43,715 nucleotides of DNA from a virus: positions 1 to 43,715 of IMG/VR virus record IMGVR_UViG_3300021599_000790; one strand, written 5' to 3'. Shown piece after piece: positions 16,316 through 35,009 of this stretch. The number at the start of each line of letters is the position of its first letter. Position 1 is the first letter of the stretch. Made by a program: the position numbers and the translations under genes. The notes under the pieces were generated by a model. It made no database searches. It saw only the letters and a list, made by a program, of their open reading frames with translations, and had not been told where the DNA came from.

Positions 16316-16317
16316 AA

Positions 16318-17475: not shown

Positions 17476-18540
17476 ATGGCTGATGGAATTTCAGGTGCAG
17501 GTGCAGAGATTACAGCTCTCGCGGAGAGTTTACAAGCTTATGCATGTGCTACGAGACAATTCATTGGTAAACCACTAACCGATGTTACAGAAATAACTAA
17601 TAAAACAATTGGTGATGCTGAGTGTGATAGACCATTGGATAAATGTTTAAAAGGTTTAAATGCAAATTGGTATCACAGTGTCATAACTACAGCCAATGAA
17701 ATTTTTAAAGATGTCAAACCTCAAGGTAAATATATGTTTTACCGTGGTGGAAAATTAGTCGGCGACATTTATAAAGAGTTCGGAAAATTTAGAAAAGAAA
17801 GTGGTTTATCTGGAGATGATAAATGGAATCCTGCTGACATTTGGATGGCAAAAAAAGGATTTAAATTTGAAAAAGACTGGTCAACACTTAGAGACTATAA
17901 TCGATATATCTATGATGAATTTGCACATAAGAATCTAATTGGAATTTCTTTGAAGTTGGTACCAAAAGGTGATGCACATTCTAAAATATTTAATGATGGT
18001 AAACCTCTCATCGCAGAATGGAATGGGTACAAAATTAGTGATGATATGTTTAGTTCAAAAGACATATATCTGAAATATAAATCAGAAGGTAAAGAAGGTG
18101 AAATACAACTTAGAAATTTCTCAAGTCGTCCGGTTACAAGTTCTTGGCAAGGAGAAATTAAAGGTAAAACAGCAGCAGGTGGAAAAATTGGTGGTGGCAT
18201 TGTAATGACTGCTGCATTAGAATCTGGGATACCAAGAACTAAACTAATGATACCTTCGTCTTTCGGTACTCATATTGAAAAACCTAATGATAAGATTCTA
18301 AAAGAATTTGCTACAATGTTTAAAGAATTAAGTAAAAGTAAAAAATCAGTAAAAGATTTAATGACTGAAGCTATGATTTGTCAAAAGAAAGATAAGACTT
18401 GGTGGATGTCAAAATTTTTAGGCATACATTATGTTTATACCATTATAAACGAAAAAAAAGAAAATGAAGTTGTTAAATGGTTGTTTGAATATGGATCATC
18501 AGCAACTAAGAACAGTAGTATTTTTATAAAGTATAGCTAA
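17476..18540 (+). CDS. Nuclease-like protein (possible PD-(D/E)XK core)
   Basis: This 354-aa protein is not clearly assignable. Residues about 117-125 read WNPADIWMA, and about 155-165 read LIGISLKLVPKG. An aspartate after a short strand followed by a strand with SxK resembles the PD-(D/E)XK nuclease core with serine in place of the acidic residue. A glycine-rich stretch (AAGGKIGGGIV) lies in the middle. The family appears in T4-like aquatic phages as a conserved protein of unknown function. The hairpin hiding its SD and the composite promoter suggest mainly late expression. Its stop overlaps the next gene start (TAATG). Confidence 0.5.
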   Translation: MADGISGAGAEITALAESLQAYACATRQFIGKPLTDVTEITNKTIGDAECDRPLDKCLKGLNANWYHSVITTANEIFKDVKPQGKYMFYRGGKLVGDIYKEFGKFRKESGLSGDDKWNPADIWMAKKGFKFEKDWSTLRDYNRYIYDEFAHKNLIGISLKLVPKGDAHSKIFNDGKPLIAEWNGYKISDDMFSSKDIYLKYKSEGKEGEIQLRNFSSRPVTSSWQGEIKGKTAAGGKIGGGIVMTAALESGIPRTKLMIPSSFGTHIEKPNDKILKEFATMFKELSKSKKSVKDLMTEAMICQKKDKTWWMSKFLGIHYVYTIINEKKENEVVKWLFEYGSSATKNSSIFIKYS

Positions 18541-19772
18541 TGAAATTCTCAGAATATTTAACCGAATCTAAGAAAGAAGGAGCTAACCTTCACTTAGAAC
18601 ATTTAGAAGATAATGTATTAAACAGAGGCATAAAAGGTGCAAGAGAGTCAATTGATTTTCTCCGTGCATTGCGTGATATGTTAGCAGGTCATTCTCAATC
18701 CAAAGTGAATGTTACTACAAAATGGGATGGTGCTCCTGCTGTAATTTGTGGTACTAATCCAGAAAATGGAAAGTTTTTCGTCGGCACAAAATCAGTTTTT
18801 AATAAAGAAGGTAAATTAAATTATACTGATGATGATATTGATAAGAATCATCCTGGTGGAGGACTAAATGAAAAATTAAAAACAGCACTTGCTTTTCTTT
18901 CAAAGTTAGAAATTAAAGGTATATTACAAGGTGACATGTTATTCACTAAAGGTGATATACAAAAACAAAGTATAGACGGCGAATCATATATTACATTTCA
19001 GCCTAATACAATTGTTTATGCTGTGCCTACTGATTCTGTTATGGCTTCAAAAATGATGGCAGCTCAAATGGGTATCGTGTTTCATACATCGTATTCTGGT
19101 AGAACCATGGATACATTGAAGGCCTCTTTTAATATTGATATTGGTAATTTAAAACAAACTAAAGATGTTTGGTTTAGAGATGCTTCATTTGTTGATGCCT
19201 CTGGTACTGCAACATTTACTGAAACAGAAACTAAGTTAATTACGAATGTTCTATCTCAAGCAGGCAGAGTATTTCAAACAATCAATCCTCTAGTTCTAAA
19301 TAGAATATCTTCTTCAGATATTTTAAATACACAAATTAAAACATTTAATAATACGAAAGTCAGAGCAGGTCAAAAAATAACTAACACTCGAACACATGTT
19401 ACAGAATTGATTCGTTGGGTAGAAGATAGGTTGAATAAAGAAATTCTTGCTGCAAAGAAAGAAGATACGAGGAAAAAAAGAATCGCAGAAAAATCTGAAC
19501 TGATTAGATTTTACAGAAGTAGTGCATCTCAACTTGCGGCAATTTTTGACTTAATGAACTTAATTGTAGACGCCAAGATAATGATAGTCAGAAAATTAGA
19601 ATCTATAAAATCTTCAGTAAGTACTTTTGTAAATACTGAAGATGGTTTCAAAGTTACTGGTCCAGAAGGTTTTGTTGCAGTAGATAGATTAAGTGGTGGT
19701 GCATTGAAACTTATCGATAGAATGGAATTTTCGCAACAAAACTTTAATGCCGCAAAGAATTGGAGTAAATAA
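18540..19772 (+). CDS. DUF6267-like protein with nucleotidyltransferase (ligase) motifs and a capsid-targeting-like leader
   Basis: This 410-aa protein begins MKFSEYLTES, matching the T4 internal-protein leader pattern with an LTE-S cleavage-like site at residue 9. The body shows the ordered motifs of covalent nucleotidyltransferases (DNA/RNA ligases): motif I KWDG (61-64), motif III-like GILQGDMLF (127-135), IIIa-like TFQPNTIVYAVP (152-163), motif IV-like PEGFV (375-379), and motif V-like LKLID (389-393). A long helical insertion (285-355) separates IIIa and IV. The family looks like DUF6267 of T4-like phages. Ligase-type chemistry (lysine K61 adenylylated) is my inference from motif order. 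Confidence 0.6.
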   Translation: MKFSEYLTESKKEGANLHLEHLEDNVLNRGIKGARESIDFLRALRDMLAGHSQSKVNVTTKWDGAPAVICGTNPENGKFFVGTKSVFNKEGKLNYTDDDIDKNHPGGGLNEKLKTALAFLSKLEIKGILQGDMLFTKGDIQKQSIDGESYITFQPNTIVYAVPTDSVMASKMMAAQMGIVFHTSYSGRTMDTLKASFNIDIGNLKQTKDVWFRDASFVDASGTATFTETETKLITNVLSQAGRVFQTINPLVLNRISSSDILNTQIKTFNNTKVRAGQKITNTRTHVTELIRWVEDRLNKEILAAKKEDTRKKRIAEKSELIRFYRSSASQLAAIFDLMNLIVDAKIMIVRKLESIKSSVSTFVNTEDGFKVTGPEGFVAVDRLSGGALKLIDRMEFSQQNFNAAKNWSK

Positions 19773-21463: not shown

Positions 21464-22297
21464 ATGAGAGATTTGATTATAGGATGTTCCACCAACTACG
21501 ATTGGTCCAAATTAAAATATTGGATCAACTCTATCAATAAATCCGGATTTCAGGGTGATAAGGTCATGATTCTTATGAATTGTGACAAAGATACAGTAAA
21601 TAAAGTTGTTGAATCCGGATTCAATGTTATAGGTTTCAAAAAAGACGAAGAAGGTAATTTAACATATTCCTCTAATATGCCAGTGCATACTGAAAGATTT
21701 TTGCACATATACAACTATCTAAAAGATAAGGACTATCGATACGTAATTACTACTGATGTTAAAGATGTAGTCTTTCAAAAAAATCCTATTGAATTTTTGG
21801 AAAAGGAATGTGTCAATAAAAATTTACTTTTTGCTTCGGAAAGTATTCGATACAAAGATGAACCATGGGGTGATCAAAACTTAAAAGAAACTTTTGGTCC
21901 TTACATTTATGAACAGTTTAAAAATAATGAGATATTCAATGTGGGTGTTTTGGCTGGACATGGATATGCTATTCGTGATTTAGCACTAAACATTTTTGTT
22001 TCTTGTTTGAATCGTCCAATTCCTATTTGTGACCAATCAACCTTCAACTTTATGATTAGTCAAAATCCCTACACTTCATTGAGTAAGTATACGCGTTCTG
22101 AAGAAGGCTGGGCAGCACAGTTAGGTACAACAGGAGATCCATCAAAAGCATTACAATTTGATCCTGTTTTATTGGAAGCCAAACCTAAACTACAAGATGG
22201 AATTGTAACGACATCTGAAGGAAAACAATTTTATATTGTACACCAGTACGATAGAGTACCTGAAATGAAAAATACATTGGAGAAAAAATATGAGTGA
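21464..22297 (+). CDS. Glycosyltransferase-like protein
   Basis: This 277-aa protein looks like a GT-A type glycosyltransferase: an N-terminal strand DLIIGCSTNYDW, a central YRYVITTDVKDVVFQKNPIE with a DxxD-type metal-binding motif in the expected position after a beta strand, and FNVGVLAGHGYAIRD further on. It starts a block of surface-glycan genes. A T7 run and GGAG (21446-21456) precede ATG. The acceptor could be phage structural protein or host LPS. It overlaps the methyltransferase start by eight bases. Confidence 0.65.
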   Translation: MRDLIIGCSTNYDWSKLKYWINSINKSGFQGDKVMILMNCDKDTVNKVVESGFNVIGFKKDEEGNLTYSSNMPVHTERFLHIYNYLKDKDYRYVITTDVKDVVFQKNPIEFLEKECVNKNLLFASESIRYKDEPWGDQNLKETFGPYIYEQFKNNEIFNVGVLAGHGYAIRDLALNIFVSCLNRPIPICDQSTFNFMISQNPYTSLSKYTRSEEGWAAQLGTTGDPSKALQFDPVLLEAKPKLQDGIVTTSEGKQFYIVHQYDRVPEMKNTLEKKYE

Positions 22298-22862
22298 TAT
22301 GTTAGTAATTAATACGAATTCTGAAGCATTTAATATAACAGAAAAAAGAGAATTTAGGCCTTCTGGGTACCACTTTAAACAATTTATTTCTGTAATGGAA
22401 AAACCTGTTGTTTTAGAAATTGGTTGTGATATCGGTGATACAGCATTTTCTTATCTAGAATGTAATCCTAATTTAACTTTATATTCTATTGACCCGTATG
22501 ATGATTATGTTGATTGGAATGGAAATCATTTGAATGAGAGACAGAAACTTTATCAACATGTGGTGGATAGATTTAAACCATTTGGTGATAGATTTAAACT
22601 TATACGAAGTAATTCTGATGAAGCGGTTAGTCTTTTTGAAGATGAATTTTTTGATTTAATTTTTATAGATGGACTTCATACTTATGACCAACTAAGTAAA
22701 GACTGTGATAATTATTATTCCAAACTAAAAACCGGATCAATATTTTCTGGACATGATTATACGGTAATTGAGGGAGTTAATAGGGCTGTTAATGAATTTT
22801 CTCAGAAAGTAAATAAAGAAGTTAATAGTGGTGAAAACGATACGTGGTTTTGGGTCAAATGA
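22290..22862 (+). CDS. Class I SAM-dependent methyltransferase
   Basis: This 190-aa protein has the Rossmann methyltransferase motifs: motif I VVLEIGCDIGDTAFSYL (GxDxGD variant, about 32-48), motif II LYSIDPYDDY, motif IV-like FDLIFIDGLHTYDQLSKD, and GSIFSGHDY. This is the Methyltransf_24 type often found in glycan and LPS gene clusters. It would methylate a sugar or small molecule; the target is unknown. It is translationally coupled on both sides. Confidence 0.82.
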   Translation: MSDMLVINTNSEAFNITEKREFRPSGYHFKQFISVMEKPVVLEIGCDIGDTAFSYLECNPNLTLYSIDPYDDYVDWNGNHLNERQKLYQHVVDRFKPFGDRFKLIRSNSDEAVSLFEDEFFDLIFIDGLHTYDQLSKDCDNYYSKLKTGSIFSGHDYTVIEGVNRAVNEFSQKVNKEVNSGENDTWFWVK

Positions 22863-23548
22863 AAAATTGCATAGTTTTTTCTGGACAATTCAGGACTTTT
22901 AAAGATACTGTTGAAAACATCAAAGAGTTTATTCGAATCAATGATTTAGATGTTTATTGTTTTTTATGGACTACAGACGCGGATGAAAAGCGATTTGTAG
23001 TCGATAATCTAAAACCTATAAACTTTAGATTTGATGATTACTCCAATTATCAAGGTATGTTTGAAGAAATGGAACAAAGAATTCGCCATAATAACCCTAA
23101 ACCTGCTCCCATCGATAAGGTTGCTGCAAACGCATCGATGAATTTTGCTAGAAAACAGGCGTATTCTTTAGTGAGAAATAATTATGATAACATCTTCTAT
23201 TGTAGATATGACATTGACATATACGAACAGTTTACTTTAAAGGAACAAGTTGATTTTGTAGTAACACCATTAGAAGAATCGTATAATTTAATATCGGATA
23301 TATTTGCAATTATACCTCAAAAATATGCTAAACATTATTTTTTGTATGATGAATATGAAAATATACACTCAACTAAATTTGAACCTAAGTTTGAAGAATG
23401 GTTGAGAAGTATTAAAAAATACGGTGAAGAAAACATCAGGATTCATAGAGATGATAGATATTGTCCACATATGATGTTGTTACGCAATTTATGGAATAAT
23501 AATGTACCCTTTGTTATAGAAAACCTTCCTGTGAGAATAAAAAGATGA
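22859..23548 (+). CDS. Glycosyltransferase-like protein, first of a tandem pair
   Basis: The 229-aa product starts at ATG 22859, overlapping the methyltransferase stop (ATGA). It begins KNCIVFSGQFRTF, shares this with the next gene's ALCFSGQARSF, and has a DxD-like IFYCRYDIDIYEQF in the middle. Other shared points are VYCFLWTTD versus VYIHSWKFD near residue 40. The two are diverged paralogues. The family resembles phage and capsule-locus glycosyltransferases of poorly known specificity. I am sure it is a real gene, less sure of activity. Confidence 0.6.
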   Translation: MKNCIVFSGQFRTFKDTVENIKEFIRINDLDVYCFLWTTDADEKRFVVDNLKPINFRFDDYSNYQGMFEEMEQRIRHNNPKPAPIDKVAANASMNFARKQAYSLVRNNYDNIFYCRYDIDIYEQFTLKEQVDFVVTPLEESYNLISDIFAIIPQKYAKHYFLYDEYENIHSTKFEPKFEEWLRSIKKYGEENIRIHRDDRYCPHMMLLRNLWNNNVPFVIENLPVRIKR

Positions 23549-24270
23549 AAATAGCTTTATGTTTTTCTGGACAAGCCAGATCGTTTGAAAAAGGTTACGA
23601 ATATTATAAAAAAAATCTCTTAGATAATTATGATGTAGATGTTTACATTCATAGCTGGAAATTTGATGGTGAAGAAAAGTTTTTGGATCTTTACAAACCA
23701 AAATCTTTTAAATTTAGTGATCCTTACTCAAATACTGAACAAGGATTTAAGTTGGATGATTACTATACGCATACACCAAATAGAGAAAAATATCCACCAA
23801 GATTTACATATTCGATGTTTGATTCTATGTATAGGTGTTTAGAATTATTGGTTCACGAATCATTAAACAATCGGACTGATTATAATTGGGTAATAAGAAC
23901 TCGAACTGATTATGCTTTGAATGTTTCGATTCCTTTTGAAACACTAGATTCAAACAAACTTTATATACCAAATTGTAGAATGGTACCAGAAAGAGATTTT
24001 GGAAATGACCAGTTCGCATTTTCATCATATAATAATATGAAAAAATATATGTCAACTTTCATGAACATAAATCACTACTATGATGATTTGAAAACATTAT
24101 TCATAGGTGAAGATTTGATGAAAGCCAATTTACATGAACATAATTTATTTGGTGAAAATTTGGTTTATGTTAATATGAATAATCCTTTTCCACCAGGATC
24201 CCACAACGGAACTTGGCACTCATTGATTCGAGATGATTACGAAGAATGGACAAACAATTCAAAAAAATAA
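23545..24270 (+). CDS. Glycosyltransferase-like protein, second of a tandem pair
   Basis: This 241-aa protein begins KIALCFSGQARSFEKGYEYY and has WVIRTRTDYALNVSIPF with the R-T/Y-D-Y/D pattern of its neighbour (CRYDID), plus FGNDQFAFSSYNNM as in nucleotide-sugar transferases. It overlaps the previous gene by four bases and the next by 25. It likely adds a sugar to the same product as its paralogue, perhaps in sequence. This is inference from the pair and cluster. Confidence 0.6.
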   Translation: MKIALCFSGQARSFEKGYEYYKKNLLDNYDVDVYIHSWKFDGEEKFLDLYKPKSFKFSDPYSNTEQGFKLDDYYTHTPNREKYPPRFTYSMFDSMYRCLELLVHESLNNRTDYNWVIRTRTDYALNVSIPFETLDSNKLYIPNCRMVPERDFGNDQFAFSSYNNMKKYMSTFMNINHYYDDLKTLFIGEDLMKANLHEHNLFGENLVYVNMNNPFPPGSHNGTWHSLIRDDYEEWTNNSKK

Positions 24271-25004
24271 TCAAAGAATTAAAAGGACATTCTGGAAATA
24301 AAATAACTTTGGTTGAAAACGATAATATTTTATACGTTGAAAAAACTGGAGATATAGAAAGAAATTTTGAAAGAATGAAGTTTCTTTATGAAAACAACTA
24401 TAATGTACCATTAATTTTTGAAAGTGATGGAAAAACATTCATGAACATGGAGTATATCCATGGTCTTGATATGAAAGAATATTTAAAAACACATAATATA
24501 AAGTTTCTTTTTAATTTTATATTTGATATATTAAAACAGTTTTCTGAAAATAGTGAAGTTGTAGATTACACTGAAACATATTATAAAAAGTTATCTTTTC
24601 TTGATGATGTGAATGATTTACCTTTCTCTAAAGAAGAATTTATATATTCTTTACCTAAAAAAATACCCAGATCACATTATCATGGAGATTTTACTTTAGA
24701 AAATTTAATTTATACAGAAAACAAATTCGTTATGATTGATCCAGTAACAATAGAATATGATTCTTATATATTTGATATAGCTAAACTTAGACAAGATTTA
24801 GAGTGTAAATGGTTTCTTAGAGAGACAGACTTAAGATTAGATGTAAAATTAAATGAGTTACAAGAGAGAATACTGAATTCTTTTCCCTTGGCTAAAGATG
24901 ATAATTTATTAATATTGATGTTATTAAGAGTTTATAGGCACACTAAGAGTGGTGATAATAATCATCAGTTTATTTTGAAGGCGATTGAAAAATTATGGAA
25001 ATAA
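24246..25004 (+). CDS. Choline-kinase/aminoglycoside-phosphotransferase-like kinase
   Basis: This 252-aa protein has the APH/choline kinase fold. An N-terminal nucleotide-binding lobe contains MNMEYIHGLDMKEYL (hinge). The catalytic lobe contains HYHGDFTLENLIY (HGDxxxxN, about residues 144-152) and KFVMIDPVTIEYD (the IDP/DFG-equivalent). LicA-type choline kinases and sugar kinases share this form. With the adjacent nucleotidyltransferase it makes a LicA-LicC-like pair, suggesting activation of a small alcohol or sugar as a nucleotide conjugate. The substrate is not decided by sequence. It overlaps both neighbours. Confidence 0.75.
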   Translation: MDKQFKKIIKELKGHSGNKITLVENDNILYVEKTGDIERNFERMKFLYENNYNVPLIFESDGKTFMNMEYIHGLDMKEYLKTHNIKFLFNFIFDILKQFSENSEVVDYTETYYKKLSFLDDVNDLPFSKEEFIYSLPKKIPRSHYHGDFTLENLIYTENKFVMIDPVTIEYDSYIFDIAKLRQDLECKWFLRETDLRLDVKLNELQERILNSFPLAKDDNLLILMLLRVYRHTKSGDNNHQFILKAIEKLWK

Positions 25005-26038
25005 TTGTACCTGCAGCAGGACTTTCAACCAGATTTCCCAATACTAAACCCAAATATCTATTATATGATTACGGTCATAAAATGATGATACAGAGAGCTC
25101 TGGATCCTTGGTTAAAAACCGAACATAATATAACGGTTGGAGTTTTAAAACAACATGATGAAAAATTTAACTCTGTAGATTTTTTGAAGTATGAATTTGG
25201 TGATAGAATTAATGTGGTTATTTTAGAAGAAATGACCGAAGGTCCGGCTGACACTGTTTATAAAATCATAAAAAAATCTAATATTGATTTAACACAACAA
25301 TTATTAGTTAAAGATTGTGACAGTTTTTTTCATATGGATAAAGTTGAAACCGAAAACTTCGTATGCACTTCAAATATAGCTGATCATGAGGTATTGAAAA
25401 AATTATCATCAAAAAGTTTTGTTATAAAAAATGAACAAGGTATAATTACTAGTATTATAGAAAAAAAAGTTGTATCTGATACCTTTTGTGTTGGTGGTTA
25501 CGGATTTAAAAATGTTCAATCATATTGTGACACATTTGAACAATTAAAAAAATCTCAAACGAATAGAGAAATTTTTGTTTCAGATGTAATATCCAAACAA
25601 CTGGAAGATGGTGAAATTTTCAGTTCAGTTTCGGTTAAAAATTACACGGATGTAGGAACGCAAGAAGATTGGCATGAATACAATAACAAACCTGTTATAT
25701 TTTGTGATATAGACGGCACACTAATAGTATCACAAAGTAGAGTTGGACAAAATAACTTTTATAGTTCTTATATTGCTTTAGAAAAAACTGTTAATAAACT
25801 ATTAGATTTACAGAAAAATGGAGCTCAATTTATATTTGTAACTTCTAGACCTAAAAATTTAGAAAGACAAACTCATAATTTACTCACATCTCTAGGATTT
25901 AAAAATTATGAATTAATTATAGGATTACAAAATTCTACTAGAATATTAATAAATGATTTTAATAATGCGAATCCACACCCTAGAGCAATATCAATTAATG
26001 TAGAACGAGACAAGGACCAAGCATGGATGTATCTTTAA
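24995..26038 (+). CDS. Bifunctional sugar-nucleotidyltransferase and HAD phosphatase
   Basis: This 347-aa fusion has two parts. Residues 1-225 form an NTP transferase: IIVPAAGLSTRFPNTKPKYL (the GxSTRF-PK signature), LVKDCDSFFHM as the metal-binding strand, and VGGYGFKNV. Residues 230-347 form a HAD phosphatase: PVIFCDIDGTLIVSQ (DxDGT), IFVTSRPKN (motif II), and LINDFNNANP (acidic motif). Comparable fusions activate a phosphorylated compound and dephosphorylate a related one in surface glycan pathways (LicC-like). It overlaps the kinase by ten bases and the next gene by 16. The domains are clear; the substrate is not. Confidence 0.82.
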   Translation: MEIIVPAAGLSTRFPNTKPKYLLYDYGHKMMIQRALDPWLKTEHNITVGVLKQHDEKFNSVDFLKYEFGDRINVVILEEMTEGPADTVYKIIKKSNIDLTQQLLVKDCDSFFHMDKVETENFVCTSNIADHEVLKKLSSKSFVIKNEQGIITSIIEKKVVSDTFCVGGYGFKNVQSYCDTFEQLKKSQTNREIFVSDVISKQLEDGEIFSSVSVKNYTDVGTQEDWHEYNNKPVIFCDIDGTLIVSQSRVGQNNFYSSYIALEKTVNKLLDLQKNGAQFIFVTSRPKNLERQTHNLLTSLGFKNYELIIGLQNSTRILINDFNNANPHPRAISINVERDKDQAWMYL

Positions 26039-26739
26039 TTCCTAATAAAATTTTATTTATTGTTACTTCAGCTTTAAATTCAAAAGTTGGAGTTGTGAAT
26101 AGTACTCAAAGATTACAACAGACAGTAGAAACACTAATTAATTTAAAACAAAAAGTGCCTGAAGCCACTATACTTCTTGTAGATGGTTCGCCTGATCCAG
26201 TTCCCGAAGAAACGAAAAAAATAATCAGTCAACATTGTCAATGTATTTGGTTTGGAGAACATCCAGAAATAAATTCAATGTCATCAATAGGTAGACAAAG
26301 TGAGGCTGAACTTTTACTATTATTTAATACCTTTATTTTATTTAAACGTGTTCCTGAATTTATGAGTTTTTTGCATGGAGTCAAAAGAATTTTCAAATTT
26401 TCAGCGAGAAGTTTTTTAGAAGATGATTTCGACATTAATGAGTATGATAATCTTTTTGGTAAGTATGTGTTTAAGAAATCTTTGCCATCTTGGATGCCAC
26501 CCGAAAGAAAAAAGAATATAACTGATCATCTCTACATTACAAGAATGTATTCCTTTTGTCCTTCTTTATTGGATAATTACTTACAACAAATTCAACCAAT
26601 GTTAAACAACGTGATGCAACATAGAATCGATTTCGAACATGCTCATTATCTTTGTCTAGATAAAACACATATAGTTGAATTTGATAGAATAAAATGTTCT
26701 GGCATCGTATCGGTTTCGGGACAAATGGAAAGATATTAA
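26023..26739 (+). CDS. Putative glycan-cluster protein, unknown
   Basis: The 238-aa product has an N-terminal alpha/beta pattern (KILFIVTSALNS, RLQQTVETLINLKQKVPEAT, ILLVDGSPDPVP) like a glycosyltransferase Rossmann half, and a later FKFSARSFLEDDFDIN with acidic residues. No clear DxD or family motif is visible. It lies between the nucleotidyltransferase and the oxygenase and overlaps the first, so it is probably part of the same pathway. Low certainty about activity. Confidence 0.55.
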   Translation: MDVSLIPNKILFIVTSALNSKVGVVNSTQRLQQTVETLINLKQKVPEATILLVDGSPDPVPEETKKIISQHCQCIWFGEHPEINSMSSIGRQSEAELLLLFNTFILFKRVPEFMSFLHGVKRIFKFSARSFLEDDFDINEYDNLFGKYVFKKSLPSWMPPERKKNITDHLYITRMYSFCPSLLDNYLQQIQPMLNNVMQHRIDFEHAHYLCLDKTHIVEFDRIKCSGIVSVSGQMERY

Positions 26740-26740
26740 T

Positions 26741-27517
26741 ATGATTAATGAATTTGAATATGAAAAATTACAAAATGAGTTTAAAAATGGACAACCATTT
26801 TCTCATTGTGTTATAGATAATTTTTTTGATGAAGAAACGGCTTTAAAATTGTCAGAAGAATTTCCCGACTATAATGATAACGTTTGGTCTATCTATGATA
26901 ATCCAATAGAAAATAAAAGAACTAATTCAAACTGGAATTTGTTTCCAAAAGAAACATATCAATTCTTTTCTTTAATGAATGGTGATGAGTTTATAGAAAA
27001 AGTAAAAAAAATTACAGGTATTGATGATTTGGCTGCCGATTATGGATTACACGGCGGCGGGTGGCACATGCATGGTCGCAACGGAAAATTGAATTTACAT
27101 AAAGATTATTCTATTCATCCAAAACTTGAAATGGAAAGAAGAATTAATATTATCATTTACATGACACCAATTTGGCAAGAATCTTGGGGTGGAGGGTTGG
27201 AATTATGGTCAAATGATGAGGAAAAAAATTTACCAAAAGAATGTATTAAAAAAATTGATAATAAATTTAACCGTGCTGTAATTTTCGACACTACGCAGAA
27301 TTCGTGGCATGGCCTTCCTGATGCGATTAATTGTCCTCCAGGAATGTACAGAAAATCTTTAGCAATATACTATGTCTCTCCTCCAAGAAAAGAAGCTGAA
27401 GTACATGACCGAGCACTTTTTGCACCTTACAAAGATCAGGTTAGTGACCCTAAAATTTTAGAATTGATTAAAAAAAGATCAAGTTCTAAAACCTCTGGTG
27501 AAGTTTATAGGACATAA
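26741..27517 (+). CDS. 2-oxoglutarate/Fe(II)-dependent dioxygenase (prolyl-hydroxylase type)
   Basis: This 258-aa protein has the double-stranded beta-helix motifs of 2OG-Fe(II) oxygenases: NLHKDYSIHP supplies HxD, NSWHGLPDA supplies the distal iron-binding H, and MYRKSLAIYYV the arginine for 2-oxoglutarate. FSHCVIDNFFDEETALKL at the start is typical of phage and capsule-linked members. It would hydroxylate a protein, sugar or other substrate using O2. It ends the glycan-gene block before the late promoter at 27538. The family call is firm and the target unknown. Confidence 0.85.
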   Translation: MINEFEYEKLQNEFKNGQPFSHCVIDNFFDEETALKLSEEFPDYNDNVWSIYDNPIENKRTNSNWNLFPKETYQFFSLMNGDEFIEKVKKITGIDDLAADYGLHGGGWHMHGRNGKLNLHKDYSIHPKLEMERRINIIIYMTPIWQESWGGGLELWSNDEEKNLPKECIKKIDNKFNRAVIFDTTQNSWHGLPDAINCPPGMYRKSLAIYYVSPPRKEAEVHDRALFAPYKDQVSDPKILELIKKRSSSKTSGEVYRT

Positions 27518-27537: not shown

Positions 27538-27545
27538 TATAAATA
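27538..27545 (+). promoter_or_regulatory. T4-type late promoter (TATAAATA)
   Basis: The exact T4 late consensus TATAAATA lies in the 68-base gap before the large modular late gene, 40 bases from its ATG. In T4 this element is read by host polymerase carrying gp55, gp33 and the gp45 clamp. The gap also holds the SD GCGGAG (27575-27580). Confidence 0.8.
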
Positions 27546-27585: not shown

Positions 27586-30309
27586 ATGAAATTTAAAGAC
27601 TTTCTATTAGAACAGAAAGAAAAACACGCTGTCATGGCTTTCGGCCGTATGAATCCGATTACGAACGGCCATGAAAAAGTAGTCAAGGAAGTCAAAAAAA
27701 TTGCTAAGCAATTTGACGCATCCCACCACATCGTACTGTCACATTCTCAAGATCCGAAGAAAAATCCTCTTACAGTACAGCAAAAAATGAAACACGCTAA
27801 GCGTGCATTTCCCGATACAAAATTTGTAGCAGCATCCAGTGAATCTCCCACATTTTTCGAATATGCCGAAAAGTTATACAAACAAGGTGTAACTCATTTT
27901 CACATGGTTGCTGGTTCTGATCGAGCTCTCGAATATTTAAAATTACTCAAAAAATATAATGGTACACATAAGGGTGCTAGATTTAATTTTAAATACATGG
28001 GTGTAGAATCTGCCGGTGAACGTGACCCAGATGCAGAAGGCGCAGAGGGTATCTCCGCATCAAAGATGCGTGATGCTGCCGCAAAGGGAGATTTCAAAAC
28101 TTTTAAAAAAGGCGCACCATCAAAAATGTCAGTTGATCAGGTAAAAGACATGTATAATGATGTGCGTAAAGGTATGAACATTAAAGAAAGCATCAATGAA
28201 GAATTCGAAGAACTTCTCGTTGAAGGTGTACATGATCAAAGTATTTTCAAAGCAGTATTTTTAGCAGGCGGTCCAGGTTCAGGTAAAGATTATGTGTTAA
28301 GTAATACATTAGATGGCCATGGATTAACAGAAATTAATTCTGATAAAGCTTTAGAGTTCTTAATGGATAAAAAAGGACTTGATAAGAGAATGCCTGAGAA
28401 TGAAACTGAAGCGAGAGATATCGTTCGAGGCAAAGCTAAGAGTGTAACTGAATTACGTCAACGTTTAGCATTACAGGGAAGAAACGGTTTAATCATCAAT
28501 GGTACAGGCGATGATCCTAAAAAGGTTGCAAAAATTAAATCAAAATTAGAAGAATTGGGTTACGACACCTCAATGATTCTTGTCAATACAAATGATGAAG
28601 TGTCTGCACAAAGAAACATTGAACGTGGTCAAAGAGGTGGTAGAACTGTACCAGAAACAATTCGTAAAGAAAAATGGGACAATGTTCAAAACGCACGTAC
28701 AGAATACGCAAAGATATTTTCTGATCGTTATATGGAGTTTGACAACTCGGAAGATTTGCGACAAGCGCCACCTGATGTGGTTAAAGAAAAGAAAATGGAA
28801 ATGTTGCAACTCTTTAAGAATGTTAAAGAGTTCGTTGCACAACCTCCACAATCTCCTGCTGCTCAAGAATGGGTAGCAAATGAACTTCAACAAAAAGATA
28901 CATTAAAGCCGGACACAAAAGGTGCAGAAAAGATTCCACCAAGTGGATCTAGTGCTGCTGATGAAGCTAGAAAGATGGGATTACAATATTATGGATTTGG
29001 CCGTTACGGTAAAAATGGTAAAACTACACACCGTTCAGTGCATGACAAATTAGTACAAGTAACAAACAAAGAACCAGAACAACCAAAATTACCAACACCA
29101 GGTTCTTCACCAGTTGATAATAAATCTAAAGTCAAAAAAGAATCTATTGATGACGAATTTGAAAATCTTATTTCAGAAGATTTGCGTAAGTGGTTTAGTA
29201 AAACTGATCCAGAAGGTGGTTGGAAAAGAATTAATAGTAAAGGTGAAGCAATTGGTCCTTGCGCTCGTGAACCTGGTGAACCAAAACCAAAATGTATGTC
29301 AAACGAAAAACGTGCTTCATTGTCCAAGAAAGAACGTGCATCTGCTGTCGCAGCAAAACGTAAACATGATCCTGTTGCAGACAGAGGTGGCAAAGGTGGT
29401 AAACCTGTGAATGTTTCTAATTTTGGAAAAGGAAAACTATCTGAAGCTGTAACAGTTTCGGTTACTGGTGATACAGTTGATGAAGTAAAAGACTTCTTTA
29501 CTACATTCAATAATAATGTAACCCATGAAGAATCATATGCTTTGTCTGATTCAAAGACTGATGCTATAACATTAGGTAAATTTATGCAACCCTTTGGTGA
29601 GAAAATGGAAAATACCATGATCACTAATGAGATGATGCAAGATATGCTTGATGAAAGTCAACATAATTTATTGAAAGATAAACAAGGTAGAGTTAGAGTT
29701 TTCATGTTGCGCTCTGTTGCAGCAAAAGAAGCACATACGAAACAAGGTATCGTTTTGAAACATAAAAATGGTTATGTAATTAAACTAAAAGAGGAGATTG
29801 AAAATGTTGAAGTTTATAAAGGAACTATTCGGAATTGGATTGAAGAATCCAAACAAGCACGGGTTAGAGGGAGCATCGACAGCTCCAAACCAGGACTTCT
29901 CACAGAGAGTAGAACAATACTCAGCACCAGTGGAAGCACCAGTTCAGGAACAAACAGTTCAAGAGAAACCAAAGACGCAAAAGAAGGCACCAGCATCCAA
30001 GAAGCCATCGCCAAAGAAACAAGAAACAAAATCACCCTCTCAGAAATCAGGCAGAGGCAGAAAACCTGGTCAGAAGAACAAATCAACGAAATAGATCGTG
30101 GTATTGAACCTGGTCTATCAATGGCTGGTGCAGGTGAAAGTATTGGTAGAGATATGGGAGAAAAAATTAAAAAAAGATCCCATAAAGTTACTACAGTAGA
30201 AATGACTGGTGATGAAACAACAGCTTCTATTGGTGATCAAAAAGAAGGTGAGTTAAAAAGAAAAGGTATTAATTTAACGACATTCAAAGCAAAAAGGCCG
30301 ATAGGATGA
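27586..30309 (+). CDS. Large modular late protein: NMNAT-like domain, P-loop kinase and further modules
   Basis: This 907-aa protein begins MKFKDFLLEQ, a T4 capsid-targeting-like leader. Residues 14-200 form a nucleotidylyltransferase: FGRMNPITNGHEK (HxGH variant), VLSHSQDPKKNPLT, HMVAGSDRALEYL, and GISASKMRDA. Residues 221-415 form a P-loop kinase (AVFLAGGPGSGKDYVLSN Walker A, LIINGTGDD, zeta-toxin/kinase type). Further modules follow: LRKWFSKTDPEGGWKRI (533-549) with a basic tail, a domain at 621-690, and LLKDKQGRVRVFMLRS (695-710). Module borders carry (L/I)xE sites at E213, E531, E620 and E690. Residues about 745-838 coincide with a nested gene in another frame and have atypical codons. 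I infer a packaged polyprotein. Confidence 0.8.
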   Translation: MKFKDFLLEQKEKHAVMAFGRMNPITNGHEKVVKEVKKIAKQFDASHHIVLSHSQDPKKNPLTVQQKMKHAKRAFPDTKFVAASSESPTFFEYAEKLYKQGVTHFHMVAGSDRALEYLKLLKKYNGTHKGARFNFKYMGVESAGERDPDAEGAEGISASKMRDAAAKGDFKTFKKGAPSKMSVDQVKDMYNDVRKGMNIKESINEEFEELLVEGVHDQSIFKAVFLAGGPGSGKDYVLSNTLDGHGLTEINSDKALEFLMDKKGLDKRMPENETEARDIVRGKAKSVTELRQRLALQGRNGLIINGTGDDPKKVAKIKSKLEELGYDTSMILVNTNDEVSAQRNIERGQRGGRTVPETIRKEKWDNVQNARTEYAKIFSDRYMEFDNSEDLRQAPPDVVKEKKMEMLQLFKNVKEFVAQPPQSPAAQEWVANELQQKDTLKPDTKGAEKIPPSGSSAADEARKMGLQYYGFGRYGKNGKTTHRSVHDKLVQVTNKEPEQPKLPTPGSSPVDNKSKVKKESIDDEFENLISEDLRKWFSKTDPEGGWKRINSKGEAIGPCAREPGEPKPKCMSNEKRASLSKKERASAVAAKRKHDPVADRGGKGGKPVNVSNFGKGKLSEAVTVSVTGDTVDEVKDFFTTFNNNVTHEESYALSDSKTDAITLGKFMQPFGEKMENTMITNEMMQDMLDESQHNLLKDKQGRVRVFMLRSVAAKEAHTKQGIVLKHKNGYVIKLKEEIENVEVYKGTIRNWIEESKQARVRGSIDSSKPGLLTESRTILSTSGSTSSGTNSSRETKDAKEGTSIQEAIAKETRNKITLSEIRQRQKTWSEEQINEIDRGIEPGLSMAGAGESIGRDMGEKIKKRSHKVTTVEMTGDETTASIGDQKEGELKRKGINLTTFKAKRPIG
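29804..30094 (+). CDS. Nested lysine/proline-rich small protein (overprinted)
   Basis: ATG 29804 has a strong SD (GAGGAG, 29791-29796) and encodes 96 aa in another frame inside the 27586 gene. The N-terminus is LKFIKELFGIGLKNP, followed by a repetitive VEQYSAPVEAPVQEQTVQEK, and a very basic tail (KKAPASKKPSPKKQ, GRGRKPGQKNK). Such proteins look like nucleic-acid-binding or head-packaged basic proteins of phages. In this stretch the long frame has 30 of 83 codons ending in C and only 7 in T (hand count), unlike the rest of the genome, which suggests that the nested frame was the original one. It could have inserted into, or fused with, the modular gene. Confidence 0.65.
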   Translation: MLKFIKELFGIGLKNPNKHGLEGASTAPNQDFSQRVEQYSAPVEAPVQEQTVQEKPKTQKKAPASKKPSPKKQETKSPSQKSGRGRKPGQKNKSTK

Positions 30310-30890
30310 AAACATTTAAAGAATTAATGTTAGAGAGATGTTGGCCAGGTCATAAACCTGTACCTGGTAAAAAACCTTATTCACCAGGTTCTTGTGTAAA
30401 AGAAGAACAACTTGATGAAATGCCTGGTGCTAATATGGACACTAGAGCAGTACATAAGCATCTTAGAAAATCTGGTTGGGAATTAACTAGAACATCCGGT
30501 GGTCACGATGTGTTTACTCATCCAGAAGCTAAGCATCATATTCCTGTTCCTCGTCACAAGCAATTAAAGGCACCATTAGTTCGTGGTATTCTAAAAGCTG
30601 CCAAAATAAATGAAGATTTGGAAGAATCTGCCGCATGGCAACGTAAAGAAGGAAAAAATCCTGAAGGTGGATTAAATCGTAAAGGTATTGCTTCTTATCG
30701 CCGTGAAAATCCTGGTTCAAAATTGTCAATGGCTGTGACTACACCACCATCAAAATTAAAACCAGGAAGTAAAGCAGCGAATCGCCGTAAATCATTTTGC
30801 GCTCGTATGGGTGGTATGCCAGGTCCTATGAAGGATGAAAAAGGTCGTCCAACAAGAAAAGCATTATCTTTGAGAAAGTGGAATTGCTAA
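30306..30890 (+). CDS. Modular late protein with HicA-like toxin domain
   Basis: This 194-aa protein overlaps the previous stop (ATGA). Modules are: leader MKTFKELMLE (1-10); CWPGHKPVPGKKPYSPGSC (12-30), a short Cys-flanked phage tag; a HicA-like double-stranded-RNA-binding/mRNA interferase domain at 45-103 with HLRKSGWELTRTSGGHDVF (the GxxH catalytic histidine, H67) and IPVPRHKQLKAPLVRGIL; and a basic C-terminal module (AAWQRKEGKNPEGGLNRKG and NRRKSFCARMGGMPGPMKD), similar to DUF6321. Junctions are QLDE-M (38) and DLEE-S (107). No HicB antitoxin gene is adjacent. The domain may act as an RNase delivered to the host or as an RNA-binding piece; this is inference. Confidence 0.72.
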   Translation: MKTFKELMLERCWPGHKPVPGKKPYSPGSCVKEEQLDEMPGANMDTRAVHKHLRKSGWELTRTSGGHDVFTHPEAKHHIPVPRHKQLKAPLVRGILKAAKINEDLEESAAWQRKEGKNPEGGLNRKGIASYRRENPGSKLSMAVTTPPSKLKPGSKAANRRKSFCARMGGMPGPMKDEKGRPTRKALSLRKWNC

Positions 30891-32201
30891 GTGGCACAAT
30901 TTAGAACCGACTTACACAAGATAGATTCAGGACAAGTATTCACTCGTTATGAAGTGAATATGATGTCTGATCGTCTTACACCATCGGGCACAATGACAGA
31001 TGCGTTTGGTCGCCTTCGTCTATCACAACCATTTACTCTTTTTGATAGTTCGCACCGTTTTACTGACAACGGACTGTGGTCAACATCAAATACAGAAGGA
31101 AATAGTTCATATGCTTTTGTAAACAATCAAAGTATGATTGCGATGACTGTGGGAACTACAGCAAATGCCGAAGTCATTCGTGAGACAACAAGAGTGTTTT
31201 CATATCAACCAGGTAAGTCTTTGTTGATGATGTCGTCATTTGCTATGGAGACACCTAAAGCAAATGTTCGTCAGAGAGTTGGTTATTATGGTGCTGAGAA
31301 TGGTATCTATCTTGAGAATGATGGAACAGCAAACTATTTTGTGCTGAGAAGTAATACATCAGGGACAATTACAGAAACAAAAGTTACACAAACAGATTGG
31401 AATATAGACAAGTTTGTCGGCACGGGTTATTCATCTCAAAGTGGTGGTGCTGAACATACTAACGGCATCGATGTAAGTAAAACTAATATTCTTTGGATGG
31501 ATATTGAATGGTTGGGTGTTGGTGATGTTCGTTGTGGATTTGTGGTTGATGGTAAAATGGTTCCTGCTCATATATTTCATAATGATAATAAGAATTTGGT
31601 TCCTTATATGACAACGGCATCTTTACCGTTGCGTTATGAAATCAAGAACACAGGTATTACAACAAGTAATTCTACATTAAAACAGATTTGTTCAACCGTT
31701 ATATCTGAAGGTGGATATGAGTTGCTTGGATCGCAGCAAGCCGTAGGCACACCAGTTACTAGCCCAATTGATTTGGCCGTTGCTGGAACATATTATAATC
31801 TCATTTCTTTGAGATTGAAATCGGATAGATTAGATGCGATTGCCATTATTACTGCACTATCTTTATTAGCATTAACTAACAACTCATATTATAACTGGCA
31901 ACTCAGGGCGGGTGGTACAACAACAGGTGGAACATGGGTAAGTGCAGGAGATAATTCGGCTGTTGAATATAAATTAGATGCCGCAACAATTTCAGGTGGA
32001 AGAATATTAGCATCGGGCTTTACAACTTCTACTACACAAAGTTCTATACCAGTGGATATTCTTAGAGAAGCACTATTCAAATTTCAATTAGAAAGAAATG
32101 GATTGACCAATACACCCTTCGAACTCACATTATGTGTGGCAGCATCAGTTAATGGTTCTGATATATACGCATCGATGGATTGGGAAGAAGTCACAAGATA
32201 A
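30891..32201 (+). CDS. Virion structural protein
   Basis: The 436-aa product starts with GTG at 30891 directly after the previous stop. It begins AQFRTDLHKIDSGQVFTRYE and has the hallmark MTDAFGRLRLSQPFTLFDSS and FTDNGLWSTSNTEGNSSYAF of structural proteins widely found in T4-like and other aquatic phages. The rest is beta-rich. It is likely a tail or baseplate-associated component; the exact place in the virion is not known. It lacks the leader and cleavage-site features of its neighbours. Confidence 0.72.
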   Translation: MAQFRTDLHKIDSGQVFTRYEVNMMSDRLTPSGTMTDAFGRLRLSQPFTLFDSSHRFTDNGLWSTSNTEGNSSYAFVNNQSMIAMTVGTTANAEVIRETTRVFSYQPGKSLLMMSSFAMETPKANVRQRVGYYGAENGIYLENDGTANYFVLRSNTSGTITETKVTQTDWNIDKFVGTGYSSQSGGAEHTNGIDVSKTNILWMDIEWLGVGDVRCGFVVDGKMVPAHIFHNDNKNLVPYMTTASLPLRYEIKNTGITTSNSTLKQICSTVISEGGYELLGSQQAVGTPVTSPIDLAVAGTYYNLISLRLKSDRLDAIAIITALSLLALTNNSYYNWQLRAGGTTTGGTWVSAGDNSAVEYKLDAATISGGRILASGFTTSTTQSSIPVDILREALFKFQLERNGLTNTPFELTLCVAASVNGSDIYASMDWEEVTR

Positions 32202-32226
32202 CAAAAACTAAATCAGGAGAACTAAA

Positions 32227-33549
32227 ATGTTTCAAGACAAACTAACAAAAGAAATTGCTGCTGCAGCAGCACAAATTAAAACAGAACCAACTAAAAACGT
32301 TGTAAATGGAAACAGCGTTGAAGGTGCTGTTGTTTCAATTATGGCCAATGAAGAACTTAAAGGTAATCAACACAAGATTGATGCCAATAAGAATGGTAAA
32401 GTTGATGCACACGACTTTAAACTTCTTCGTAGTAAGAAAAAAGTAGAAGAAGGTGTTAAGGGTGCTGGTGTAGGTGCTGCTCTAGGTTCTGTTGCTGGTG
32501 GACCAGTCGGTGCTGCAATTGGTGGTGCTTTAGGACATGTGGCTGGTGAAGTTCTTTCCAGTGCTAAAAACAAAGCAAAAGCTATGGGTCGTATTGCTGT
32601 AGGTCCTTCAATGGCTGATAGCAAATTAAAAAGAGAAGATGTTGAACAAATCGATGAAGTTGGTGATACATCAGCAGGTAGAAAAATGATTAGTTCATAT
32701 GTCAACAAAGCAATTGGTGACAAATCAAAAGACCGTTCAAAAGGTTTACGTAAAGCAACATCACGCCTCTACAAAGACAATTACTATGGTAAAAAGAATG
32801 AAGAAGTTGAAATGAACGAAGAAGATGCTTATAACAAAGACCGTTATGCTGTTAAAGATGGTAAAGCAAAAAAAGATAATCCTACACACATGGGTTCACC
32901 TAACTACAAAGATCAACCACATCATGTTTGGGCAACAAGTGCTGAACATGCATTGAAAAAATCTATGAAGAAAGAAGAAGTTGAACAAATGGACGAAGCT
33001 TTTCCAACTGTAGCAGATGCTAAAAAACGTATGGCTGCCGGTCAAAGTTCTTTCGAGAAAAAGAAAATTTCTACTGGCACAGTTTACTCACGTAAGTACA
33101 AAGCAGAACCAGATGATGCAGATGATATGCCAAAGAAAAAGGCAAAGACTATGAAAGAGATGTTGGACATTTACAGACAACATGGCGCAGAATCTTTGGT
33201 AGAAAATTTAATGATCGAAGAACCAACGAACGATGAGTATAAAAAAGAAGCTGAAATTGCTCAAGCAAAATCTGAAGGTAAAATTCGCAATGACAAACAG
33301 ATTGCTAAAGCAGCATCACAAGGTGTAAAAATGGAAGAAGTTGAACTTGAAATGTATGATGCTGATGAAATCAATGGTGTTCAAATCGATACAATTGATG
33401 AGCGTTCAATGACTGATGCTGAAATGGACAAACGTGAGAAAATCGTAAAGTCAATGAAAAAAGGCATTCAAGGTTTCAAAGATCGTTATGGTGATGATGC
33501 TAAGTCGGTAATGTATGCTACTGCAACCAAAAACGCGATGAAGGACTAA
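32227..33549 (+). CDS. Modular late protein with EF-hand, glycine zipper and repeated KKEEVExxDE linkers
   Basis: This 440-aa protein is built of short modules. An EF-hand/dockerin-like calcium loop (DANKNGKVDAHD, residues 52-63) is followed by a glycine-zipper membrane-active stretch (GVKGAGVGAALGSVAGGPVG, then AAIGGALGHVAG; about 76-107). A basic module (GRKMISSYVNKAIGDKSKDR), a module around NPTHMGSPNYKDQPHHVW, and helical modules follow. They are separated by near-identical linkers: KREDVEQIDE (135-144), KNEEVEMNE (190-198), KKEEVEQMDE (248-257), and KMEEVELE (368-375). The linkers resemble prohead-protease sites. Similar modular proteins occur in T4-like cyanophages. No catalytic site is visible. 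I infer a head-packaged polyprotein. Confidence 0.65.
   Translation: MFQDKLTKEIAAAAAQIKTEPTKNVVNGNSVEGAVVSIMANEELKGNQHKIDANKNGKVDAHDFKLLRSKKKVEEGVKGAGVGAALGSVAGGPVGAAIGGALGHVAGEVLSSAKNKAKAMGRIAVGPSMADSKLKREDVEQIDEVGDTSAGRKMISSYVNKAIGDKSKDRSKGLRKATSRLYKDNYYGKKNEEVEMNEEDAYNKDRYAVKDGKAKKDNPTHMGSPNYKDQPHHVWATSAEHALKKSMKKEEVEQMDEAFPTVADAKKRMAAGQSSFEKKKISTGTVYSRKYKAEPDDADDMPKKKAKTMKEMLDIYRQHGAESLVENLMIEEPTNDEYKKEAEIAQAKSEGKIRNDKQIAKAASQGVKMEEVELEMYDADEINGVQIDTIDERSMTDAEMDKREKIVKSMKKGIQGFKDRYGDDAKSVMYATATKNAMKD
32380..32415 (+). other. EF-hand/dockerin-like calcium-binding loop
   Basis: The 12-residue loop has D, N, N, G, V, D and final D at positions 1, 3, 5, 6, 8, 9 and 12, a full match to the EF-hand/dockerin pattern. 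It lies in the N-terminal module of the 32227 protein. In this form it could bind Ca2+ or stabilise a protein-protein contact. Confidence 0.65.
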
Positions 33550-33551
33550 CT

Positions 33552-35009
33552 ATGAAAAAGTTTTCGGATGTTTTTAAATCCATTCGATTTGCTAAATTGG
33601 ACCCTCAACATGATAAACCTGAAATTGGTGGATCAAAAGATGATGAGGAACATTATACTGTTGGCACAAAAGAATGGGATCAACAAGTAAAACATGTAAA
33701 GAAAAGAGCTATGCAAGAAGAAAAGAAAGACAAGTATGATGAGGGTGAATATGACCGTGAAGGTGATATGGCTAAATCCGACTTGCGTTCTATCATTGCG
33801 AATGCTAAAAGATTGCACGATATGATTGAAGATGCTGATAATCTTCCTGAGTGGGTGCAATCTAAAATTACTGTAGCAGAAGATTATATTTCAACCGTTG
33901 CGAATTACATGACAGCAGAAATGAATGAATCTGTCGCAGATACACATTCTAAATTGCGTAAAAAATCTGGTTTGCCACATCCCGATTACTATAAAGAATT
34001 AGGCAAATCTTATGATATTGAAGATGATAAAGAAAGACTTTCAAAGCAATCTGAAATCAAAAAGAAATACAAAGTCGAATCTTATGTTCCTTCACCACAT
34101 GCCAAACCTGTTCCTAAGAAACCAAAAGGTGAATATGAACGTAAGGTTGACAAGTATTTGAAAAAGAAATACAACAAAGAAGAAGTGGAAATAGACGAAG
34201 CAGCAAAGTGGCGTTCAACTTCAGTAGCAAAAAAAGTTACTGATCCTGATGATGAAAGCAGTCGTTCTTATGACTATCATCACGAAAATCCCAGATCAAC
34301 AGGCATGAAGCAAGCAACTTCAGATAAGCCATATTCATCGGGCAGTTTGATGACAAGACTTAAAGCACAAGTCGCCTCACAGGGTGCCAGAAAAGGTATG
34401 GTTACCAAACAACACGCCGCAAGTCTAAAAGATAGAATCAAGTCTGCTATGCGTAAAGAAGAAGTTGAACTTTCTGAAGGTCGCCCATCACAGCGCCATC
34501 CATTAGAGGGTCATGAATATCACAAGAAAACGGATGCTGAATTGATTCACATTGCTAAAGATGCACATGAAGCAGCAGAAGCAATGAAAAGTCACAACAC
34601 AACCGCAGAAAACAAATACCGTGACCAAGCAAATGATTCTGCGACAGTGAGATATTTCCGTCAAAAGAGTGGTATGCCTAACTGGTATAAAAAGAAGTAC
34701 GGACACGTTAAGGAAGAAATGGAACAGTTAGAAGAAAAGAATGTTCCAACTTCACCTGAAAAGTGGGCTCAGGCCAAAGCACAAGCAAAAGCTAAGTTTG
34801 ATGTATATCCATCAGCCTACGCAAATGGTTGGGCTGCAAAGAAATATAAAGAAATGGGTGGTGGTTGGAAATCAGTTAGCGAAGAAACTATTTCAGAATC
34901 TCGCAAATCTGAAATTATCAAAAAGTTAGTTAAGAAAAAAACTAATCCAGACGATAAATTTGAACCAAATCCAGTAATGGTAAAAACCAGAGATGACAGA
35001 GATCATTAA
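33552..35009 (+). CDS. Modular late protein with (I/L)xE linkers
   Basis: This 485-aa, highly charged protein starts MKKFSDVFKSIRF. Modules: 72-126 (DMAKSDLRSIIANAKRLHDM), a helical domain known from T4-like phages; 127-208 (THSKLRKKSGLPHPDYYKEL); 217-301; 310-386 (EYHKKTDAELIHIAKDAHEA); 397-440 (EKWAQAKAQAKAKFDVYPSA, then YANGWAAKKYKEMGGGW), a motif recurrent in aquatic phages; and a basic end. Linkers are KEEVEIDE-AA (E216), KEEVELSE-GR (E309), KEEMEQLEE (E395), and ETISE-SR (E449). Three of these fit the full T4 prohead-protease consensus. It follows the similar 32227 gene after two bases. No enzyme motif is visible; a DNA-binding or packaged-cargo role is inferred. Confidence 0.65.
   Translation: MKKFSDVFKSIRFAKLDPQHDKPEIGGSKDDEEHYTVGTKEWDQQVKHVKKRAMQEEKKDKYDEGEYDREGDMAKSDLRSIIANAKRLHDMIEDADNLPEWVQSKITVAEDYISTVANYMTAEMNESVADTHSKLRKKSGLPHPDYYKELGKSYDIEDDKERLSKQSEIKKKYKVESYVPSPHAKPVPKKPKGEYERKVDKYLKKKYNKEEVEIDEAAKWRSTSVAKKVTDPDDESSRSYDYHHENPRSTGMKQATSDKPYSSGSLMTRLKAQVASQGARKGMVTKQHAASLKDRIKSAMRKEEVELSEGRPSQRHPLEGHEYHKKTDAELIHIAKDAHEAAEAMKSHNTTAENKYRDQANDSATVRYFRQKSGMPNWYKKKYGHVKEEMEQLEEKNVPTSPEKWAQAKAQAKAKFDVYPSAYANGWAAKKYKEMGGGWKSVSEETISESRKSEIIKKLVKKKTNPDDKFEPNPVMVKTRDDRDH

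Follow-up and report, generated by a model that had tools for sequence, protein, structure and literature searches.

The late gene cluster of a freshwater T4-like phage encodes four proteins (o27586, o30306, o32227 and o33552) that carry unrelated domains and small modules, which raises the question of what such chains do and how they are processed. A sequence-only reading proposed that they are packaged into the prohead core and cut by a gp21-type prohead protease at (L/I)xE sites lying at module borders. We examined this proposal in the window, that is, the whole 43.7-kb fragment (43,715 nt) of the phage genome, and in its relatives. Its nearest isolates, Pelagibacter phage HTVC008M and the Methylophilales phage Melnitz, are both assigned to the Kyanoviridae. 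The gene order of DNA polymerase, UvsX-like protein, DnaB-type helicase and cargo cluster (27586-35009, the four genes above) is the same in HTVC008M, P-SSM2, Melnitz and S-SCSM1. The window is a fragment that ends before the head genes and contains neither these nor gp21 itself.

Several neighbouring genes were recorded as well. Between the helicase and the cargo cluster lies o16267 (16267-17433), which has a Pfam match to DruA (the Druantia protein; E=7.9e-9) and another to phrog_19197, whose function is unknown. A block of glycosyltransferase or nucleotide-sugar type genes (21464-27517) is inserted 5' of the late promoter; it includes a possible NTP-transferase/HAD fusion (24995-26038), followed by a 2OG-Fe(II) oxygenase (26741-27517). 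A conserved virion structural protein (phrog_1645; 30891-32201) is embedded among the four cargo genes.

The first cargo gene is preceded by a late promoter element, and its product is the longest of the four chains. Predicted bonds are marked by a slash.

27538-27545 (+): T4-type late promoter element TATAAATA, 41-48 nt 5' of the o27586 start
27586-30309 (+): cargo polyprotein 1 (o27586), 907 aa; leader, nucleotidyltransferase, P-loop kinase, KWF module, further small modules
27586-27612 (+): capsid-targeting-like leader MKFKDFLLE/ (E9); M1, F3 and E9 invariant in 18/18 homologues
27613-28197 (+): nucleotidyltransferase (cytidylyltransferase/NMNAT-like), TxGH and SxSxxR-type motifs; PF01467, phrog_3041/395
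28222-28224 (+): predicted cleavage site LLVE/G (E213) before the kinase; E and G invariant in 18/18, P3 L/I in 18/18
28225-28884 (+): P-loop kinase module (zeta-toxin/AAA_33; nucleotide/polynucleotide kinase fold); PF06414 E=2.8e-13, Foldseek, phmmer
29176-29178 (+): predicted site LISE/D (E531) before the KWF module; module gain and loss bounded here
29179-29445 (+): basic KWF module (residues 532-620, pI 10.1), optional in homologues
29443-29445 (+): predicted site KLSE/A (E620); E in 17/17, P3 L/I in 16/17
29653-29655 (+): predicted site MLDE/S (E690) in a disordered stretch; not a conserved column in the alignment of 18 homologues

The promoter element occurs once in the window with both strands counted, against 5 expected, and either TATAAATA or a (C)TAAATA element is found at -50 to -30 in 17 of 19 o27586 homologues. 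Late expression, a criterion for T4-type internal head proteins, is thus met by the promoter element, while transcription itself is inferred from the sequence. The Foldseek matches of o27586 included NaMN adenylyltransferases as well as adenylate, UMP-CMP and polynucleotide kinases. In the kinase P-loop (28264-28293), GGPGSGKD, the Walker Lys is followed by Asp instead of the usual Ser/Thr; this GKD is invariant in all 18 homologues, and gp129 of HTVC008M has GKT. The AlphaFold model of o27586 showed ordered nucleotidyltransferase and kinase domains with stretches of pLDDT<50 between them, such stretches making up 34% of the chain. Six of the seven [LI]xE[AGS] Glu residues fell inside these stretches (p=0.007), and the seventh, E201, lay one residue outside. 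The larger predicted cleavage pieces are mostly basic, as are the T4 internal proteins.

The other three chains are shorter:

30306-30890 (+): cargo polyprotein 2 (o30306), 194 aa, pI 10.2; leader, CWPG module, HicA, DUF6321
30306-30335 (+): capsid-targeting-like leader MKTFKELMLE/ (E10); leader scan, family comparison
30417-30419 (+): predicted site EQLDE/M (E38) before HicA; [LIVM]xE directly before HicA in 7/7 contexts
30444-30608 (+): HicA-like module; PF07927 E=4e-12
30624-30626 (+): predicted site DLEE/S (E107) between HicA and DUF6321; 14/14 contexts before DUF6321
30651-30881 (+): DUF6321 basic module; PF19846 E=3e-23
32227-33549 (+): cargo polyprotein 3 (o32227), 440 aa; glycine-zipper stretch and linkers, no strict leader
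32656-32658 (+): predicted site VEQIDE/V (E144); 5/5 contexts before the VGDT module
32995-32997 (+): predicted site VEQMDE/A (E257); 7/7 contexts before the FPTVADA module
33552-35009 (+): cargo polyprotein 4 (o33552), 485 aa; several small modules, no strict leader
34197-34199 (+): predicted site EVEIDE/A (E216); sequence match, low-pLDDT stretch in a weak AlphaFold model
34476-34478 (+): predicted site EVELSE/G (E309); E invariant in 12/12, 19/19 contexts before GRPSQRH
34734-34736 (+): predicted site MEQLEE/K (E395); E invariant in 12/12, 27/27 contexts before KNVPTSP
34896-34898 (+): predicted site ETISE/S (E449); 6/8 contexts before SRKA

Single chains thus hold several biochemically unrelated domains: nucleotidyltransferase, kinase and KWF in o27586, and HicA with DUF6321 in o30306. 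Pfam assigned a peptidase domain to none of the four proteins. No HicB (antitoxin) was seen among the Pfam matches of the scanned neighbours, although no HicB-specific search was made. All four o33552 sites tested sit in stretches of pLDDT<50; this adds little, because 51% of that weak model, which cannot define domains, is below 50.

Every site named in the sequence-only reading was found in the protein to which it had been assigned (E213, E531, E620 and E690 in o27586; E38 and E107 in o30306; E144 in o32227; E216, E309, E395 and E449 in o33552). It had missed E9 (leader), E201, E754, E774 and E806 in o27586, E10 (leader) in o30306, and E257 and E392 in o32227. The observation was confirmed and proved stronger than that reading had recognised. 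The four cargo proteins contain 11 [LI]xE[AGS] matches against 3.6 expected from residue shuffles (p=0.001), mostly owing to o27586 (7 vs 1.9, p=0.0025) and o33552 (3 vs 0.7, p=0.03). No match with A/G/S at P1' was counted in o32227, and residue shuffles indicated no enrichment in the remaining window proteins (19 vs 21 expected).

Such a pattern could be compositional, reflecting nothing more than ordinary acidic linkers in mosaic phage ORFs; the linkers are indeed Glu-rich, and the window alone gives just p=0.001. We counted sites in 148 homologues, less than 70% identical to one another, using local shuffles. There were 957 [LI]xE matches against 676 expected (z=11), with no enrichment at spacing 1, 3 or 4 and none for [LI]xD (377 vs 434); control proteins had 159 against 136. 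The enrichment was thus specific to spacing 2 and to E rather than D, and the pattern stood at 152 of 162 module borders, compared with a null rate of 12%. These results left the compositional explanation barely credible.

The N-terminus supplied a feature that the sequence-only reading had lacked. Homologues of three unrelated families, o18540 (DUF6267), o27586 and o30306, share a leader of the pattern M-K-x-F-x-x-[FYL]-[LIM]-x-E or close variants, whose x positions vary freely. The DUF6267 family adds a further candidate packaged protein:

18540-18566 (+): leader MKFSEYLTE/ of the DUF6267 protein o18540; leader scan

In phrog_455, the DUF6267 module of o18540 is joined to the nucleotidyltransferase of o27586. 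When all possible start codons were scanned, the strict leader pattern matched three times in the window (o18540, o27586, o30306), four times in S-CREM2 and twice in S-SCSM1; HTVC008M had no strict match, only looser versions. Three jumbo phages outside this phage family carry the same nucleotidyltransferase without a leader. An N-terminal leader ending at a gp21 site, another criterion for T4-type internal head proteins, was therefore met by o27586, o30306, o18540 and their homologues and unmet by o32227 and o33552, neither of which carries a strict leader itself. T4 IPIII starts with a leader of the same shape as MKxFxxFLxE. A literature search for the T4 leader string gave no match. The first ten residues of IPIII are enough for packaging, with positions 4 and 7 weighing most in targeting and positions 8 and 10 in processing (PMC9026906). 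A protein encoded between portal and gp21 in relatives (L260:1303-2118, L264:1525-2193) starts with MKSLxEFKxxVEE/EKSDYSKFD, possibly a further leader on a core protein.

Published mass spectrometry of relatives bears on packaging. Five of the six leader-bearing genes of S-CREM2 and S-SCSM1 encode virion proteins. All four S-CREM2 genes are in its virion proteome (SAM hydrolase, gp13, APH-like kinase, cytidylyltransferase); in S-SCSM1, ORF91 (NMNAT) was detected and ORF30 is not marked as virion. Because the pattern was sharpened after S-CREM2 had been seen, S-SCSM1 (1/2) is the only independent check of the leader. In the syntenic block of S-SCSM1, ORFs 89-93, 95 and 97 are recorded as virion proteins. 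S-CREM2 ORF160, also detected in virions, carries KWF, CWPGY and DVWPSAY modules with the linker KEETEISE/G, and cytidylyltransferase homologues of the o27586 module are present in virions of S-CREM2, S-SCSM1 and S-SZBM1. The published proteome reports caution that abundant non-virion proteins can co-purify. Homologues of the cargo proteins, and modules shared with them, are virion-associated in relatives; the location in the head and the source phage itself are not covered by those proteomes. Together with the T4-type leader, they lend support to the proposed prohead-core packaging. A Cas9-annotated nuclease in S-CREM2 virions, gp12 (L279:7704-10313), has a leader-like LRFASFMAE/AA near its N-terminus.

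The sequence-only reading had called for an alignment of homologues and held that freely varying Glu sites would refute it. Among the 18 o27586 homologues, E9 and E213 were both invariant, with L/I/F at P3 of E9 and L/I in all at P3 of E213. P2, by comparison, took ten different residues at E9 and twelve at E213 (entropy 3.1 and 3.5 bits, 3.46 at E213), against a median of 0.83 for conserved Glu columns. The refuting outcome was thus contradicted, and the placement of sites at module borders was clearly borne out by the alignments, by module-start contexts and, in o27586, by low pLDDT. The gain or loss of the KWF module is bounded exactly by a site preceding DLRKWF (e.g. FENLISE/DLRKWF) and by GKGKLSE/AVTV, and homologues lacking the module keep one site (FLSE/SVTV, FLTE/AVTI or FLNE/SVTV). 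In three homologues (L037, L156 and L159) the nucleotidyltransferase has been swapped for another family (GGGFQPFHAGH) behind an unchanged leader.

Twelve module kinds were found behind many dissimilar upstream contexts. Some stand first behind a leader (MKNFKTFITE/GRPSQRH, MKTFNTFVVE/DLRKWF) and elsewhere behind KEEVEQLDE-type linkers, and the leader-borne and linker-borne copies share L/I-x-E only. We aligned 147 dissimilar contexts from relatives with no prior choice of site, using only where the downstream module begins and one constant offset for each module. P1 was Glu in 146 of the 147, P3 was L/I/V/M in 95%, and P2 was variable, which is the gp21 site L/I-x-E; comparative evidence of this kind was decisive. 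The contexts are not fully independent, because linkers can travel with modules. For KWF, a first count gave [LIVM] at P3 in 18 of 24 contexts. LPHPDYYK, tried as a module start, had a site in 0/2 contexts, and this border guess was probably wrong. The border alignment, the invariant E9 and E213 with variable P2, and the spacing- and Glu-specific enrichment contradicted chance composition.

The clear shuffling of modules at these borders would also be expected if the borders were short recombination tracts, with similar linker DNA driving module exchange and L/I-x-E arising as a by-product. Distinct linker DNA copies average 83% identity. However, 39 linkers comprised 33 different DNA versions, their Glu codons (141 GAA to 22 GAG) were close to those of the same proteins overall, and leaders and linkers share no sequence other than L/I-x-E. 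We consider this DNA-level explanation improbable.

The protease itself was sought in relatives, as the sequence-only reading had suggested. Peptidase_S77 (gp21) is encoded in 14/14 large relatives tested and is absent from the window, a fragment. The KEEVEQxDE DNA pattern occurs in at least 120 stretches of viral contigs. Among the matches listed, eight contigs exceed 50 kb; gp21 was found in four of these, and the rest may be fragments. The T4 enzyme cuts after L/I-X-E (PMC9026906). In 13/13 relatives, L/I-x-E closes the gp23 propeptide region, A, T or S comes next, and P2 is T, S, A, Y, Q, N or M; identifying this bond as the one cleaved is an inference from where the cut lies in T4. Because the gp23 region shows L/I-x-E with a variable P2, leader, linker and gp23 sites share exactly L/I-x-E. 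The earlier rule for a full match held in its L/I-x-E part. Its requirement for A/G/S at P1' did not hold; it was too strict, because P1' is variable at borders and gp23 has T as well.

P1' at the borders is often L, V, K or R instead of A/G/S. Some borders may therefore be uncut, and cutting at sites with other P1' residues remains an inference. This bears on the main rival, packaging without internal cleavage, in which only the leader is cut, the (L/I)xE linkers inside the chain serve merely as flexible spacers or as additional motifs for docking in the core, and the chains are packaged and injected whole like some polyvalent proteins. The virion RNA polymerase of N4 is packaged unprocessed (PMC5512222), many borders lack A/G/S at P1', and KEEVEQLDE is conserved well beyond L/I-x-E, with E often at P5, P7 and P8, as a docking peptide would be. 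In the 87 contexts without a KEEVE linker, however, conservation was far stronger at P1 (Glu in 86) and P3 (LIVM in 92%) than elsewhere; the freedom of P2 at E213 is consistent with a protease pocket, and gp23 has the same minimal pattern. We regard uncut chains as unlikely, though a more serious possibility than either of the two explanations above.

Cleavage by the prohead protease is thus the preferred explanation, and the known systems resemble it in part. T4 IPI-III and Alt, which carry a capsid-targeting sequence and are processed by gp21, likewise have a short leader ending in L/I-x-E, late expression and basic or enzymatic cargo, and a gp21-type protease is present in the relatives studied here (PMC9026906). 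T4 cargo, however, consists of single units from which terminal propeptides are removed, whereas here many shuffled modules share a chain with a site before each. In the T4 core proteins gp22 and gp67, gp21 also cuts several internal sites, but that scaffold is cut for removal, and the chains described here carry folded cargo. Polyvalent proteins similarly join several unrelated enzymatic and small domains, and entry into the host along with the DNA has been proposed for them (Iyer et al. 2017, PMC5512222). In that class, processing is attributed to zincin-like metallopeptidases embedded in the chain, a frequent though not universal feature; none was found here, and the sites match a prohead protease acting in trans. 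The ejection proteins of the phiKZ-like giant phage SPN3US are internal head proteins whose propeptides are removed by the prohead protease, but with an AxE/SxE motif, long propeptides and no report of shuffled multi-enzyme chains (PMC5694885). Cyanophages S-SCSM1, S-CREM2 and S-SZBM1 carry a homologous NMNAT/cytidylyltransferase in their virions, and the S-SCSM1 and S-CREM2 copies have the leaders MKSFLQFLKE/A and MKNFSSFLTE/A; the accessible portions of those reports describe virion association and propose no targeting or cleavage mechanism. Targeted, gp21-processed internal proteins (T4) and multi-domain injected polyvalent proteins with embedded metallopeptidases (PMC5512222) are therefore already known. 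In the literature searched, which mostly excluded subscription papers, we found no account of shuffled cargo chains being processed by a prohead protease, and this is not proof of novelty.

Taken together, it is probable that the cluster at 27586-35009 encodes cargo polyproteins that are loaded into the prohead core and processed by gp21, with cleavage and ejection being inferred. Comparison and proteomes support packaging, and site conservation, without N-terminal data, supports cleavage; for injection there is only the analogy with T4. In the proposed mechanism, the cargo proteins would be made late, and the leader of about ten residues (MK-x-F-x-x-F-L-x-E) on the leading ones would dock them in the prohead core. 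Cutting by gp21 after the Glu of L/I-x-E would then take off the leader and separate the nucleotidyltransferase, P-loop kinase, HicA, DUF6321, KWF and other small, mostly basic modules. The pieces may remain with the DNA in the head and pass into the next host, so that a single gene could deliver numerous distinct pieces, and new cargo could be gained by module recombination between L/I-x-E sites. The order of cutting and the host function of the pieces are likewise inferred.

With less confidence, we favour a broader interpretation, namely that T4-like aquatic phages possess a general combinatorial system for cargo. In it, interchangeable, site-preceded modules under a leader would be cut apart in the prohead and then injected, among them toxin-type modules (HicA-like, zeta-type kinase) that would act in host takeover during the first minute. 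If this is true, tailed phages would use a viral polyprotein strategy with processing coupled to head maturation, and in a very abundant aquatic phage group head maturation would double as the polyprotein-processing step. A phage could then add or swap injected proteins by module recombination at a three-residue site. The cargo interpretation would explain the nucleotidyltransferases in cyanophage virions, and the leader together with L/I-x-E would provide a simple rule by which genome sequence alone predicts the injected cargo, among it many proteins of unknown role in cyanophages and pelagiphages.
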